Assembly: GCA_011774835.1 (NCBI GenBank)
Contig: JAACAK010000049.1
Span: 79,653-143,652 of the forward strand
From: Candidatus Kutchimonas denitrificans
GTDB taxonomy: Bacteria; Gemmatimonadota; Gemmatimonadetes; Palauibacterales; KS3-K002
Length of the DNA stretch: 64,000 nucleotides
Direction of reading: 5' to 3'
A program made the position numbers and the translations under genes. The stretch's first letter is position 1; every line of letters begins with the position of its first letter. Under the pieces are notes generated by a model. It saw only the letters and a list, made by a program, of their open reading frames with translations, was not told the origin of the DNA and did not search any database. Below, piece after piece: positions 1,736 through 10,278 of the stretch.

Positions 1736-2941
1736 ATGTCAACGATGAAGAGCTCGAAGCGCGAGCCGGTCGATGCAGCCCGGGACGCTTTTCGCGATAC
1801 GTTCTCCGCGCAGCCGCAGTGGACCTGCCGGGCGCCGGGTCGCGTGAACCTGATCGGCGAGCACGTCGATTACAACGAGGGGCTGGTGCTGCCCGTGGCC
1901 ATCGACCTGGAGATCGGCCTCGCTTTCCGCCGCCGCGACGACCGCCGGGTGCGGATCCACTCTCTCTCCTTCGACGAAACGGCCGAGTTCGACATCGATG
2001 ATCTGGCGCCCGGCTCGCCCGTCGCGCCGCCCCCGCCCCCCTCCTGGTCGGTCTACCCGGCGGCGGTCGCCTGGGCGATGCGGCGCGCCCATCTGCCCCT
2101 GCTGGGCATCGATGCGACGATCGCCGGTGACATTCCGCCGGGCGCCGGCCTGTCGTCCTCCGCCGCCGTCGAGATCGCCTTCGCCGCCGCCTTCCGCCAG
2201 GTCGCCGACCTCGGGCTCTCCGATCTCGAGCTCGCCCGTCACGCCCACGCTGCGGAGAACGATTTCGTAGGCGTCCGCTGCGGCATGATGGACCAGATCG
2301 CTTCGGCCTGTGCCCGGCGCGGCCGCGCCGCCCTGATCGACTGCCGCAGCCTGGAGGTCCGTCACATCGCGTTGCCACCGGCGCTCCGCATGGTGATCGT
2401 CGACAGCGGCGTGGACCGCGAGCTGAGGGATTCCGAATACAATCAGCGTCGGCTCGAGTGCGAGGAGGCGGCGCGCCGCCTGGCGGCGCTCGACGATGGC
2501 ATCGCATCGCTCCGTGACGTTCCGGCCGAGGCCCCGACCTCGCTGCTCGATGCGCTGCCGGCGCCCCTCGATCGGCGAGCCCGACACGTTGTCGGCGAGA
2601 TCGAGCGCGTGCGGCTCGCTGCGGCCGCGCTGGAGAACAACGAGACCGAGCGGTTCGGCGAGCTGCTCTTCGCCTCACACCGCTCGCTGCGCGACGACTT
2701 CGAGGTCAGCTGCGAAGAGCTCGACACGCTGGTCGAGCTCGGCCGCCAGGCCGCCGGCGTCATCGGGTCGCGGCTGACCGGCGCCGGGTTCGGCGGCTGC
2801 ACGGTCAACGTCGTGAGCGCCGCGCTGGTGAGCGATTTCCGCCGCTACGTCGCGGACGGCTACGAACGGCTGTACGGACGGCGGCCGCGGACCTGGGTAA
2901 GCGATCCGGCACCCGGTGTCAGCGTCGATCCCGTCTGGTAG
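1736..2941 (+). CDS. galK: Galactokinase
   Basis: CRAPGRVNLIGEHVDYNEGLVLPVAI signature and GHMP motif PPGAGLSSSAAVE; length about 400 aa. Confidence 0.93.
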   Translation: MSTMKSSKREPVDAARDAFRDTFSAQPQWTCRAPGRVNLIGEHVDYNEGLVLPVAIDLEIGLAFRRRDDRRVRIHSLSFDETAEFDIDDLAPGSPVAPPPPPSWSVYPAAVAWAMRRAHLPLLGIDATIAGDIPPGAGLSSSAAVEIAFAAAFRQVADLGLSDLELARHAHAAENDFVGVRCGMMDQIASACARRGRAALIDCRSLEVRHIALPPALRMVIVDSGVDRELRDSEYNQRRLECEEAARRLAALDDGIASLRDVPAEAPTSLLDALPAPLDRRARHVVGEIERVRLAAAALENNETERFGELLFASHRSLRDDFEVSCEELDTLVELGRQAAGVIGSRLTGAGFGGCTVNVVSAALVSDFRRYVADGYERLYGRRPRTWVSDPAPGVSVDPVW

Positions 2942-3007: not shown

Positions 3008-4060
3008 ATGTCACTCTTCTCGACTCGCTTCCGCGACGCCGTAACCAACGGGACCGCGCTCGTGCAGGCGCCGGGTGCGGAGGACACGGTGATGACCTTC
3101 GCGCGCTCGGTCGCCGCCGGTCTGTCCGACGATCCGAAGTGGCTGCATTGTCGCTTTCTTTACGATGCGGAAGGCAGTCGTCTCTTCGAGCGGATCACCG
3201 AACAGCCCGAATACTATCCCACCCGGACCGAGGCGGCGATCCTCCAGGCCCACGCCGACGAGATCCGCGCGCTCACCGGGCCGGTCGCCATCGTCGAGCT
3301 GGGCTCGGGCTACTCGGTCAAGACCGAGCATCTGCTGGGCGCCTACGCGGGCGACGGGAAGGACGTGCTCTACGTTCCCGTCGATGTGAGCGCCAGCGCG
3401 CTGCGCGAAGCGAACCGCTCGATCGCGTCCAACTTCCCGGCGGTCCGCTTCACCGGGATCACGGGCCCGTACCCCAGCGCCTTTCCCGTGCTGCGCCAGC
3501 TTTCACCGCAGCTGGTGGTGTTCCTGGGCAGCACGATCGGAAACTTCAACCCCGGCGAGATGACCGCCTTCTTCAGCGCGCTGAGCGGTCACATGCCCGC
3601 ACACGACTTCTTCCTCCTGGGCGCCGACCTGGTGAAGGACCCCACGGTGTTGGAGGCGGCCTACAACGATGCGGCGGGCATCACGGCGCGGTTCACGAAG
3701 AACTATTTCGTCCGTTTGAACCGCGAGCTGGGCGCCGAGCTCGACCTGGACGCCATCGAGCACGTCGCCGTATGGAACCCCGAGTGGGAGCGGATGGAGA
3801 TTTACGCCCACTTCCATCGGGCCCAGGAGATCTACATCGAACCGCTGGACGAATCCTATCAAATCGCCGCCGGCGAGCGGATCCTGATCGAGATCAGCCG
3901 CAAGTTCCGCCTGCCCATGCTGCGGGCGGAACTCGCCAAGCACGGTTTCCGTTCGAGACGCAGCTTCAGCGACGAAAAAGGATGGTTCGCGCTGCTCCTG
4001 CTGGAGCGCCTTGACGACCGTCTGATGCGGCGCGCCCCTTATCCAACAACGAAACGATAA
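3008..4060 (+). CDS. egtD: L-histidine N-alpha-methyltransferase (EgtD-like)
   Basis: FLYDAEGSRLFERITEQPEYYPTRTEAAIL, ELGSGYSVKTEHLL, FLGSTIGNFNPGE, HVAVWNPEWERMEIY, ILIEISRKF are typical of the EgtD family; stop lies 2 nt before the next ATG. Confidence 0.9.
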   Translation: MSLFSTRFRDAVTNGTALVQAPGAEDTVMTFARSVAAGLSDDPKWLHCRFLYDAEGSRLFERITEQPEYYPTRTEAAILQAHADEIRALTGPVAIVELGSGYSVKTEHLLGAYAGDGKDVLYVPVDVSASALREANRSIASNFPAVRFTGITGPYPSAFPVLRQLSPQLVVFLGSTIGNFNPGEMTAFFSALSGHMPAHDFFLLGADLVKDPTVLEAAYNDAAGITARFTKNYFVRLNRELGAELDLDAIEHVAVWNPEWERMEIYAHFHRAQEIYIEPLDESYQIAAGERILIEISRKFRLPMLRAELAKHGFRSRRSFSDEKGWFALLLLERLDDRLMRRAPYPTTKR

Positions 4061-4062
4061 GT

Positions 4063-7000
4063 ATGCACGAAGCGACGATGGGCGGCCGGGCAACGGCCGA
4101 CGCCGGTATTGATGTCATCGAGAAAGACGGGGTCTGCGGGATCTGCCCCGCCGGCTGCTGGGTGACCGTGACGATGGAGGACGGCCGGATCCGCGCCGTC
4201 CGCCCGCAAGATCACCCGCTCGGCATGATCTGCACCAACGGAGCACATTCGGCGGAGATCGTCCACGACCCCGACCGCTTGAGACATCCGCTGCGCCGAG
4301 TCGGCCCGAAAGGCACGTACGAGTTCGAGCGCATCGGCTGGGACGAGGCGTTCGAGATCATCGTCGAGAATCTCGAGACCATGAAGGCCCAGCACGGGCC
4401 CGAGTCCACGGCCATCTACACGGGGCGCGGCAGCTTCGAGCTGGCGCTGTGTGACGTCTTCCAGCCCGCCGACGTGGCCATATCGTCCGCCTCCAGCGTG
4501 CTCTTCCCCTTCGGCTCGCCCAACACGCTGGGCGTCGGCGCGCTCTGCTACGTGTCGTTCGCCATGATCGCCCCCCACGTCACGTTCGGCGAGTACTACC
4601 ATACCACCGAGCACGACATAGAAAACGCCGAACTGATCGTCATCTGGGGCGCCAACCCGGCCACCGACTCGCCGCCGCTCGCCCACGAACAGATCAAGCA
4701 GGCCGTGCTGCGCGGCGCCGACGTCATCTGCATCGACCCACAGCGCAACTACACGGCCCGCGAGGTCGACGCGACCTGGGTGCCCATCCGTCCGGGCACC
4801 GACGGCGCCCTCGCCCTCGGTATGATCAACGTCCTCATCGAAGAAGAGCTGTACGACGACGACTTCGCCGAGAACTGGACCGTCGGCTTCGAGGAGCTGT
4901 CCCAGTACGTCCAGCATTTCCGGCCCGAAACGGTCGAGGAGATCACCGGCGTGCCCGCTGCCACGGTGGCCGAGCTCGCCCGACGCATCGCCCGTGCCCG
5001 TGGCGCCGCCCCGGTCATGTACACCGGCCTCGAGTACTCCGACAGCGGCGTGCAGGCCATCCGGGCCGTCTTCACCCTCTGGGCCCTGGCCGGCCAGCTC
5101 GATGTTCCCGGCGGCCTCAACATCCGGATGCGCGAGAACCAGTTCCCGATCAACCGGGACGGCCTGGTGCCGAACCCGAACCCGAAGAAGGCGCTGGGAC
5201 GCGACCGCTTCCCGGTCTACAGCATGTACCGGGGCGAGTCGCACGCCATCGCGCTCCCCGACTCGGTGGTGGCAGGCGAGCCGTACAAGATCCGGTCGCT
5301 GATCATACTGGGCGGTTCGATCGTCACCGCGTGGCCGCAGCCGGAGATCTGGCGGAAGACGCTGGAAGGGCTCGAGTTCGTCGTGAGCATCAACCGCCAC
5401 CACACCGCCGACTCGGCCTACGCCGACATCGTGCTGCCGGCCACGACCTACTACGAGATCACGTCGTACATGACCTACGGCCCGGTGTTCAAGATCCGCG
5501 AGAAGATGGTCGAGCCGGTAGGCGAGTCGCGAAACGATTACCTGATCCTGACCGAGCTGGCAGAGCGTCTCGGTTACGGCGACCGCTACCCGCGCACCGA
5601 GGAGGACCTGCTCCGTCATGTTCTCGACGGTTCAGGATTCACCCCCCAGCAGGTGCGCGAGGCCGGTGGTTCCGTCCAGATCCCCACCGTAATGATGGAA
5701 TACAAGAAGTGGGAGAAGGGGAAGTTGCGGGAGGATGGCCAGCCCGGATTCAACACGCCGTCCGGAAAATTCGAGATCAAGTCGAGCGTCCTCGAGGAGC
5801 ACGGCTACGACGGGCTGCCCGTCTACACCGAGCCGGGCGAGGGACCGCTGGCGCAGCCTGCGCTGGCGAAGGAGTACCCGCTCGTCTTCAACTCGGGCGC
5901 GCGGATCTTCGCCGACTTCCGTAGTCAGCATCATGGCGTTCCCGGTTTGAACCGGAAGGCGCCGGTGCCCCAGGTGACGCTGAACAGCAAGGACGCGACG
6001 GCTCGCGGGATCGAGGACGGCGATTGGGTCTGGGTCGTCACGCCGCGGGGCAAGGTCAAGTACAGTGCACGGGTCACCGATCACATCGTCGAGGGCGCCA
6101 TCGACGCCAACATGGGAGGCGGCGGACCGCTGGGTCCGAAGGAGTGGCAGGACTGCAACGTCAACGACCTGACCGACCTGCAGCGCTACGACCCGATCTC
6201 CGGCTTCCCGGTCTACAAGGCGCTGCTCTGCGATGTGGTGAAGGCCGAAGGCGGCAACGGGGCCTGCCGGACCGGCGAAGCGGAGAGCGAGGCGGTGGTC
6301 GAAGTGAAGAAGCACGAGGGTCCACGCCGCCACGTGTACTTCGATCACAACGCGACGACGCCCCTCGACCCCGAGGTGCTCGAGGCGATGCTGCCGTTCC
6401 TCGAAAGCGAGTTCGGCAATCCGTCCAGCATCCACTCCCGGGGCGGCGAGGCGAAGGACGCGGTGGAAGCCGCGCGCCGTAAGGTGGCACAGGCCCTCGG
6501 CTGCACCGCGCGCCGCGTCGTCTTCACCGGCGGCGGCTCCGAGGGCGACAACCTGGCCATCAAGGGGGTGGCCCTCGCGAGGCGCGAGACGGGGGCGCAC
6601 ATCGTCACCAGCGTGGTCGAGCACCCGGCGGTGTTGCGCACCTGCGAGGCGCTGCAGGAGCTGGGCTTCGAGGTGACCTACCTGGAGGTCGACGCCACGG
6701 GTCGCGTCGACCCGGATTCGCTCGTAGAGGCGATCCGGCCCGACACGGTTCTGGTCAGCGTGATGCTGGCGAACAGCGAGGTGGGGACGATCAACCCGAT
6801 CCGCGAGCTGGCGGAGATCGCCCACGAACACGACGTGCTCTTCCACACCGACGCGGTGCAGGGTCTGGGCAAGCTGCCCATCGATGTCGAGGAACTCGGG
6901 GTCGACCTGCTCAGCGTTTCCAGCCACAAAATCCACGGCCCCAAGGGCGTAGGCGCTCTGTACGTGAGGAAGGGCGTGGAGCTGTCGCCGGTGATCCACG

Positions 7001-7491
7001 GCGGCGGCCAGGAGCACAAGCTCAGGGCCGGCACGGAGAACGTCCCCGGGATCGTGGGCTTCGGAAAGGCGTGCGAGCTAGCGGTCCGGCGACTCAACGG
7101 CCGGGAGATGGACCGAGTGCGGGGCCTGCGCGATCGGCTGGAGGCGGGCATCCGCGAGATCGTGTCCGAGGCGCGGCTCAACGGCCATGCCGACGAACGA
7201 CTCCCCAACACGCTGAACCTCACGCTGCCGGGGATGCGCGGCGAGTCGCTCGTGCTCTTCCTCGACCGTTACGGCGTCTACTTCTCTTCCGGCTCCGCCT
7301 GCAAATCGGGCAACCCCGATCCGTCACACGTTCTGAAGGCGCTGGGCCTAAGCGACGAAGACGCTCACTGCGCGATCCGCATGTCGCTGGGCGTCGGCAA
7401 CGAGGAGGCGGACATCAATTACGTCCTGGAGAGCCTGCGCGAGATCGTCGGCGATCGCCAGAGCAGCGTTCGCTTCGTCGGCTGCCGCTGA
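4063..7491 (+). CDS. Fused molybdopterin oxidoreductase / cysteine desulfurase; candidate metallopterin-dependent ergothioneine synthase
   Basis: N-terminal CGICPAGCW...MICTNG (C-x2-C-x3-C...C 4Fe4S motif) and molybdopterin-oxidoreductase body to about nt 6300; C-terminal VYFDHNATTPLDPEVLEAM, SSHKIHGPKGVG (PLP Lys), SSGSACKSG (catalytic Cys) cysteine desulfurase; one uninterrupted 1142-aa frame. Confidence 0.92.
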   Translation: MHEATMGGRATADAGIDVIEKDGVCGICPAGCWVTVTMEDGRIRAVRPQDHPLGMICTNGAHSAEIVHDPDRLRHPLRRVGPKGTYEFERIGWDEAFEIIVENLETMKAQHGPESTAIYTGRGSFELALCDVFQPADVAISSASSVLFPFGSPNTLGVGALCYVSFAMIAPHVTFGEYYHTTEHDIENAELIVIWGANPATDSPPLAHEQIKQAVLRGADVICIDPQRNYTAREVDATWVPIRPGTDGALALGMINVLIEEELYDDDFAENWTVGFEELSQYVQHFRPETVEEITGVPAATVAELARRIARARGAAPVMYTGLEYSDSGVQAIRAVFTLWALAGQLDVPGGLNIRMRENQFPINRDGLVPNPNPKKALGRDRFPVYSMYRGESHAIALPDSVVAGEPYKIRSLIILGGSIVTAWPQPEIWRKTLEGLEFVVSINRHHTADSAYADIVLPATTYYEITSYMTYGPVFKIREKMVEPVGESRNDYLILTELAERLGYGDRYPRTEEDLLRHVLDGSGFTPQQVREAGGSVQIPTVMMEYKKWEKGKLREDGQPGFNTPSGKFEIKSSVLEEHGYDGLPVYTEPGEGPLAQPALAKEYPLVFNSGARIFADFRSQHHGVPGLNRKAPVPQVTLNSKDATARGIEDGDWVWVVTPRGKVKYSARVTDHIVEGAIDANMGGGGPLGPKEWQDCNVNDLTDLQRYDPISGFPVYKALLCDVVKAEGGNGACRTGEAESEAVVEVKKHEGPRRHVYFDHNATTPLDPEVLEAMLPFLESEFGNPSSIHSRGGEAKDAVEAARRKVAQALGCTARRVVFTGGGSEGDNLAIKGVALARRETGAHIVTSVVEHPAVLRTCEALQELGFEVTYLEVDATGRVDPDSLVEAIRPDTVLVSVMLANSEVGTINPIRELAEIAHEHDVLFHTDAVQGLGKLPIDVEELGVDLLSVSSHKIHGPKGVGALYVRKGVELSPVIHGGGQEHKLRAGTENVPGIVGFGKACELAVRRLNGREMDRVRGLRDRLEAGIREIVSEARLNGHADERLPNTLNLTLPGMRGESLVLFLDRYGVYFSSGSACKSGNPDPSHVLKALGLSDEDAHCAIRMSLGVGNEEADINYVLESLREIVGDRQSSVRFVGCR

Positions 7492-7531
7492 TCGTTCACT
7501 ACAGCCGCCACGACCGGAGGAGGTGAGTCGC

Positions 7532-7837
7532 ATGGAGCGCGCGCAGCTCGAGTTCTCGGAGGGGTTCAACGTCCTCGTCGACAACGGCCGCGCCCAGGCG
7601 GCCGTCATGACGCTCGCCGCCGGCACCTCGATCGGCGGTCCCGAGAACCAGCACGAGGGCAGCGATCAGTGGCTGTACGTCGTGGCCGGAAGCGGAACGG
7701 CCATCGTCGCCGGCGAAGAGCACGAGCTGGAGACGGGCACCCTGCTGCTGATCGAGCGCGGCGAAACGCACGAGATCCGCAACACCGATGACCGCCCGCT
7801 CGAGACACTCAACGTGTACGTCCCTCCCGCATACTGA
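7532..7837 (+). CDS. Small single-domain cupin
   Basis: GSDQWLYVVAGSGTAIVAGEEHELETGTLLLIERGETHEIRN cupin pattern; strong SD (ggaggaggtg) before ATG 7532; 40 nt after the fusion gene. Confidence 0.85.
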   Translation: MERAQLEFSEGFNVLVDNGRAQAAVMTLAAGTSIGGPENQHEGSDQWLYVVAGSGTAIVAGEEHELETGTLLLIERGETHEIRNTDDRPLETLNVYVPPAY

Positions 7838-8367: not shown

Positions 8368-10251
8368 CTAGGGCAGCGCCTCGCGGGCCGAGCCCCAGCC
8401 CGTCATCGCCTCGAACACCTCGAGGGCGAAGTCGACCTTGCCGAAGGGCGCGCTGACCTGCACGCCCTGTACATGAGGCTCGATCGCGGCGACCATCTCC
8501 CTGGCGATGGCCAGCCCCTCGGCCATGCCCGCCTCTTTCCCCTTGTCGGTGGCGGCCCTCATCCGCTCGAGCACGGAATCGGGCACCTCGATGCCCGGGA
8601 CCTCGTTGTTGAGGAACTCGGCGTTGCGGTAGGAGACCAATGGCCAGATCGCGGCGATGGTCGGGATACGGATTCCCATCTCATCGATCCGTCCCAGAAA
8701 GTCGAGGAAGCGGTCGGTGTCGAAGATCGGCTGGCTGATGGCGTACTGGGCGCCCGCATCCACCTTCCAGTAGAAATGGTTCAGCTCGTAGTCCAGGTCC
8801 ACCGACGCGTGGTTCATGCCCACGCCGAGGAAGTAAGCCGTGGGCTCGCCGATCGAATTGTCGCCCGGATCCAGACCTTCGTTCAGCTTGCGCACCAGAT
8901 TGGTGAGCCCCACCGAGTCGATGTCGAAGACCGCGGTGGCGTCTGGGTAAGGACCCATCTTGGGCGGGTCGCCGGTGATGATCAGCAGGTTCCGGATCCC
9001 CAGCGCGTGCGCGCCCAGCAGGTCGCTCATCATCCCCAGCAGGTTCCGATCGCGACAGCAGTAATGCGGTATCGTCTCCAACCCCACCTCGCGCTCGATG
9101 ATCGAGCAGCTCGCCAGCACGCCCATCCGCATCATCGCCCGTGGGCCGTCCGGCACGTTCACCGCATCCACGCCGGCCGCCTTGAGCCGACGCACCTTCT
9201 CCAGCACGTCGGCCGGATTGGACCCCTTGGGCGGCAGGATCTCGACGCTGGTCACCCGCTGGCCATCGACGATCTTGCGGGCCAGCCGCGAGCGTTCGGC
9301 CACCGGCACCGGCTCGACGCCCTTCGGCTCCTCGGCCGCCGCCGTCTCTCTGGGCACCACGACCAGTTGACGCCGCGGCCGCAAGGCACGCACCTGGCCC
9401 GACATCACCTTGATGTGATCCGGCGTCGTCCCACAGCAGCCGCCGACGAAGCGCACACCTGCCTGGATCAGCCGGCGCGTGTACTTCGAGAAGTACTCGG
9501 GCGACGCCATGTACATCTTGCGGCCCTCCACCTCCCGCGGCAGCCCGGCGTTCGGCTGCGCAGAGAGCGGGCGGTTCGTCACCTGCGCCATCTTCTGGAT
9601 CGCCTTCAGGATCATCGCCGGACCCACGCTGCAGTTGAGCCCGACCACATCGGCGCCCGCCTCGTCCAGGTGGCGGGCGATCCGCTCCGGCTCGGCTCCC
9701 AGCGCGGTCGAGCCGTCAACCTGCACCGTCATCTGGGCGATCGCCGGCAGATCCGCCGCGTCGCGGCACCCCCGAATCGCCTGCTCGGCCTCGGAGATGT
9801 CGCTGAACGTCTCCACGATGAACGCGTCGACACCGCCCTCGGCCAGCGCCTCGGCCTGCTCCCGGAACAGCGCCCGCGCCTCGTCACGACCCGTCGGGCC
9901 GAAGGGCTCGATTCGCACCCCCAGCGGCCCGATCGAACCCGCCACGTAGACGTCGTCGGCCGCCACCTCACGGGCCAGCTCCGCCGCCACCCGGTTGATC
10001 TCGTGCACCCGATTGCCCAGACCGTGCCGGTCCAGCCGCAGGCGGTTCGCGCCGAAGGTGTTCGTCTCCAGAATCTCGGCGCCGGCGTCTCGATAGGCAC
10101 GATGCACCTCGCGCACCAGCTCGGGCCGCTTCAAGTTCAGCTCGTCGTACGAGACGTTGATGAACACGCCTCGTCGATACAGCTCGGTGCCGATCGCCCC
10201 GTCGAACAGATGCGCGCTGCCGTTCTCGATCAGCGCTCGAAAGTCTGGCAT
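8368..10251 (-). CDS. Bifunctional homocysteine S-methyltransferase / methylenetetrahydrofolate reductase
   Basis: N-terminal LFDGAIGTELYRRGVF...ETNTFGANRLRL and GGCCGTTPDHI (Zn Cys pair); C-terminal MTHFR domain (VEILPPKGSNPADVLEKVRRL, LLIITGDPPKMG, AQYAISQPIFDTDRF). Confidence 0.93.
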   Translation of the reverse strand: MPDFRALIENGSAHLFDGAIGTELYRRGVFINVSYDELNLKRPELVREVHRAYRDAGAEILETNTFGANRLRLDRHGLGNRVHEINRVAAELAREVAADDVYVAGSIGPLGVRIEPFGPTGRDEARALFREQAEALAEGGVDAFIVETFSDISEAEQAIRGCRDAADLPAIAQMTVQVDGSTALGAEPERIARHLDEAGADVVGLNCSVGPAMILKAIQKMAQVTNRPLSAQPNAGLPREVEGRKMYMASPEYFSKYTRRLIQAGVRFVGGCCGTTPDHIKVMSGQVRALRPRRQLVVVPRETAAAEEPKGVEPVPVAERSRLARKIVDGQRVTSVEILPPKGSNPADVLEKVRRLKAAGVDAVNVPDGPRAMMRMGVLASCSIIEREVGLETIPHYCCRDRNLLGMMSDLLGAHALGIRNLLIITGDPPKMGPYPDATAVFDIDSVGLTNLVRKLNEGLDPGDNSIGEPTAYFLGVGMNHASVDLDYELNHFYWKVDAGAQYAISQPIFDTDRFLDFLGRIDEMGIRIPTIAAIWPLVSYRNAEFLNNEVPGIEVPDSVLERMRAATDKGKEAGMAEGLAIAREMVAAIEPHVQGVQVSAPFGKVDFALEVFEAMTGWGSAREALP

Positions 10252-10278
10252 CGTCTTTCTCCTGGCCAGATACAAAAA

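Follow-up and report, generated by a model that had tools for sequence, protein, structure and literature searches.

A predicted oxygen-independent ergothioneine operon with a fused metallopterin-dependent synthase in a Gemmatimonadota genome

Introduction

Ergothioneine is usually regarded as an antioxidant of aerobes. The aerobic EgtB pathway shares its EgtD step with the operon described here and differs from it in requiring O2 and additional trimming steps. EanB, a rhodanese-type ergothioneine synthase, sulfurises trimethylhistidine without O2 (PMC9516567); it uses polysulfide and is unrelated to the metallopterin-dependent ergothioneine synthase (MES), the system closest to our locus. MES was described from Caldithrix abyssi as a metallopterin module joined to a cysteine desulfurase (Beliaeva & Seebeck 2022, PMC9516567). 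It was originally found among genomes that encode EgtD without a discernible sulfurising enzyme, and it was described as exclusive to anaerobes (PMC9516567), an enzyme of strict anaerobes. Four N-terminal cysteines of the C. abyssi enzyme were proposed as Fe4S4 ligands, the substitutions K952A, C1074S, C1135S, and C153S nearly abolished the product, and four divergent MES proteins all formed ergothioneine (PMC9516567). The same study named acetylene hydratase as a relative of the C. abyssi enzyme. Acetylene hydratase (2e7z) is the nearest solved relative of the N-module and has a cysteine metal ligand and an Fe4S4 cluster (PMC9516567), but it catalyses another reaction and lacks the desulfurase module.

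Organisation of the operon

The window is a 64,000-nt stretch of contig JAACAK010000049.1 from Candidatus Kutchimonas denitrificans (Gemmatimonadota). The features relevant to this analysis are:

1736..2941, + strand: galactokinase (TIGR00131 above cut-off), upstream of egtD and outside the ergothioneine pathway
3008..4060, + strand: egtD, L-histidine N-alpha-methyltransferase (TIGR03438 above cut-off; PF10017, 3e-100)
4063..6288, + strand: MES N-module, a predicted bis-MGD Mo/W enzyme (Pfam; 2e7z by sequence and fold), with putative ligands C25, C28, C32, and C57 (Fe4S4) and C162 (metal)
6289..7491, + strand: MES C-module, a NifS/IscS-type cysteine desulfurase (Aminotran_5, 6.7e-82), with K956 as PLP lysine, C1080 as persulfide cysteine, C1141 at the C-terminus as a possible relay residue, and conserved C1103
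7532..7837, + strand: small Cupin_2 protein (PF07883, 9.8e-17), probably co-transcribed, not conserved with MES

An earlier note, made from the DNA letters and their reading frames, had described an EgtD-like methyltransferase, a 2-nt gap, a single 1142-aa ORF at 4063-7491, and a cupin 40 nt further on, and this layout is correct in every part. The methyltransferase is histidine-specific, scoring 317.5 bits against the TIGR03438 equivalog cut-off of 290.9, and its stop (4060) lies 2 nt before the MES ORF with which it is co-encoded; an in-frame GTG at 2963 is a possible alternative start. The cupin probably starts at ATG 7532, immediately preceded by GGAGG. A bifunctional homocysteine S-methyltransferase/methylenetetrahydrofolate reductase gene (8368-10275, - strand; PRK08645 above cut-off) adjoins the operon.

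Domains and catalytic residues of the fused protein

The order of Pfam domains in the 1142-aa protein is Molybdop_Fe4S4 (23-68), Molybdopterin (72-502), Molydop_binding (618-720), and Aminotran_5 (758-1120), which bears out the earlier description of a 4Fe4S motif and molybdopterin-oxidoreductase body followed by a cysteine desulfurase. The C-module scores 513 bits with TIGR03402 (nifS), slightly under the cut-off of 530.75. Domain search and structure prediction across 4063-7491 gave MES-type modules: the best PDB match of the N-module by sequence is 2e7z (5.8e-74), and the same entry is the best fold match in a search with a predicted model of moderate confidence. This AlphaFold model has a pLDDT of 74.6 and a pTM of 0.53, with low confidence in the active-site loops; an argument from active-site geometry was dropped because these loops are too uncertain.

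The comparison with C. abyssi extends to individual residues. Based on the numbering of PMC9516567 and on Calditrichota relatives, the window residues C25/C28/C32/C57, C162, K956, C1080, C1103, and C1141 match C14/C17/C21/C48, C153, K952, C1074, C1097, and C1135 of the C. abyssi enzyme, and all nine are invariant in an alignment of 24 MES proteins that spans about ten phyla. The C-terminal cysteines are identically spaced (1080/1103/1141 versus 1074/1097/1135). K956 is the PLP lysine of the SSHK motif and C1080 belongs to SSGSAC, the two residues that had been noted as intact. Thus the two proteins have the same two-module architecture and identical Fe4S4, metal-ligand, PLP, and persulfide residues; in both cases EgtD is co-encoded and no EgtB is detected in the genome. 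The window differs in its host, a Gemmatimonadota lineage with aa3-type oxidases, and in the cupin downstream. Gene order, domains, and conserved residues are established directly.

Predicted pathway

The fused protein is a well-supported further member, judged by its sequence, of the published MES class (PMC9516567), as the earlier note had proposed, with the EgtD equivalog match, the domains, and the conserved residues all in its favour; in itself, the operon merely extends the known range of MES. We consider it very probable that this is an O2-independent ergothioneine operon of EgtD and MES, with a predicted sulfur relay to Mo/W and a cupin that is most likely a passenger. From homology to the C. 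abyssi enzyme, we infer the cofactor, the relay, and the product. EgtD would trimethylate histidine. The PLP desulfurase would draw sulfur off cysteine, using K956 and then a persulfide on C1080, and the sulfur would move from C1080 to C1141 and on to a bis-MGD centre of Mo or W, bound through C162. This centre would sulfurise C2 of the trimethylhistidine imidazole ring in a single step. The idea that the desulfurase supplies sulfur to the Mo/W centre had been put forward before, and the conservation of K956, C1080, C1141, and C162 is consistent with it.

For cofactor assembly, the host genome encodes MoeA, and it contains further molybdopterin-family oxidoreductases. A search of this ~87% complete genome with TIGR02666 gave no MoaA above cut-off (best 84 bits against 284); the missing match could come from the incompleteness of the genome.

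Neighbouring genes at other loci lend modest support to ergothioneine as the likely MES product. At two distant loci, L007 and L022, a fusion of OpuAC and permease domains is encoded with an ABC ATPase near EgtD and MES, resembling EgtU and of the ergothioneine/betaine type. The closest PDB entry to the L022 binding domain is the ergothioneine-binding EgtUC. For L007 the closest is ProX, with EgtUC lower in the list, and its domains run from permease to binding domain, as in EgtU (PMC9732360). A recurrent neighbour cluster was rejected as one functional family, being a mixture of different ABC ATPases.

Alternative explanations

A frameshift joining two genes, which the earlier note had raised as a danger to its own reading, or an assembly artefact with the same outcome, has practically no chance of accounting for the fusion. 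An uninterrupted fusion of near-equal length is present in relatives of 80-82% identity, including the closed chromosomes CP070812.1 and CP070823.1, and the same fusion occurs in five of the seven other genomes from the window's family; we therefore ruled the artefact out. In comparisons of the window with loci L001 and L002, most differences in either module fall at the third codon position (0.36-0.45 differences per codon, versus 0.09-0.11 at the second), which indicates purifying selection; this selection and the presence in relatives are direct observations. It is also very unlikely that the fused protein is a MES-like enzyme of different specificity, sulfurising another heterocycle or betaine, with the adjacency of EgtD only partly meaningful. 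Enzymes of the DMSO-reductase family readily diverge, five MES genomes have no EgtD match, and a standalone relative of the N-module exists in Desulfoluna, all of which would suit such a reading. Against it, EgtD lies 2 nt away here and is adjacent in other family members; all six same-family genomes with MES have it, as do most of the remaining MES genomes, and the two co-occur across phyla. The catalytic residues are all in common, and the four divergent MES proteins assayed earlier all produced ergothioneine (PMC9516567).

The cupin calls for a similar weighing. Its position on the same strand, 40 nt downstream and with its own ribosome site, would fit a functional third component, for example a protein that binds, senses, or degrades ergothioneine, and the earlier note had flagged it as a possible new part of the pathway. 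Among the loci examined, including relatives at 81-82% identity, a cupin stands beside MES only in the window, with some loci ending too near MES to exclude one. Its homologues of 52-62% identity come from Gemmatimonadota genomes in which MES was not detected (395 genomes searched), the nearest PDB entries, 3h50 and 2gu9, bear unrelated names, and the literature searched connects no cupin with ergothioneine synthesis. We consider a functional role in the pathway unlikely and rejected the cupin as a pathway part, since it is not conserved with MES; because it is absent at the other MES loci examined and has close homologues where MES is undetected, it is probably a passenger.

Oxygen and the co-occurrence of MES with EgtB

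The absence of EgtB claimed for this locus holds for the host genome, in which a TIGR03440 search found no match at 86.6% completeness. The same genome encodes two aa3-type oxidases. The heme-copper oxidase family (PF00115) is above cut-off in 30 of 34 MES-bearing genomes, a count from a set sampled with patterns from the window protein, so that its proportions are biased. By motif, about 21 of the best PF00115 matches are A-type and at least three are cbb3-type; the unclassified rest may include nitric oxide reductases. C. abyssi possesses cox genes without respiring O2 (PMC5317091); for this reason oxidase genes are only suggestive of oxygen use, and we rejected them as proof of aerobic life.

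EgtB itself is above its curated cut-off in nine of the MES-bearing genomes and lies near EgtD in eight of the nine. The isolate Thiorhodococcus mannitoliphagus DSM 18266 and the closed chromosome CP070707.1 are among them; the majority are metagenome bins. O2 is a substrate of EgtB, and the co-occurrence of EgtB with MES is stronger evidence on oxygen than the oxidase genes are. Genomes with both enzymes are not reported in the original MES paper and, like the oxidase count, go beyond it (PMC9516567); that study, whose search began from genomes with EgtD but no recognisable sulfurising enzyme, would have missed them. The earlier suggestion that the genomic background might be new gains some weight: oxidase-family genes occur in the host and in most of the MES genomes searched, and EgtB in some of the latter. 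In the dual genomes, MES would be an O2-independent partner of EgtB and not a marker of strict anaerobiosis.

A wider proposal, to which we give an even chance, is that MES is not confined to strict anaerobes but serves oxygen-exposed bacteria as the O2-independent partner of EgtB, giving one organism two unrelated sulfur-insertion enzymes (compare HemF/HemN), while some lineages, such as the window's Gemmatimonadota family, rely on MES alone despite their aerobic respiration genes. The genomes with MES and EgtB suggest that cells maintain a supply of ergothioneine whichever side of the oxic-anoxic boundary they are on, and the paired-enzyme idea is testable in the cultured species Thiorhodococcus mannitoliphagus.

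Distribution of MES and its relatives

A search of 395 Gemmatimonadota genomes found MES in 13, and the enzyme is patchily distributed over many phyla. In a tree built by a quick method with SH-aLRT support only, the window MES groups with its own family and with Myxococcales, Desulfobulbaceae, and Actinomycetes, apart from the other Gemmatimonadota MES, a placement that suggests horizontal transfer.

Members of the window's family may differ in their ergothioneine route. One of its genomes, G007 (loci L130 and L154), encodes EgtD and an EgtB-like protein with no MES; the EgtB-like protein scores 336 bits, under the 360-bit cut-off, and has the HX3HXE motif. A swap of EgtB for MES on one EgtD lineage within the family was rejected, the G007 EgtD not being close to that of the window.

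Two further arrangements were observed. Genome G001, apparently the one that L001 comes from, has a second locus (L084) where EgtD precedes a possibly truncated MES gene, of which the initial third is followed by a run of unknown bases; the intact MES of G001 is located elsewhere, with no EgtD within 6 kb. In Desulfoluna, a standalone MES-like N-module of ~50% identity (L035:5893-8211 and L040:5947-8256) lacks the desulfurase, and no EgtD lies within 6 kb of it. The metal-ligand cysteine is retained in this module, and there is a cysteine in its short C-terminal tail (PSLGCVG).
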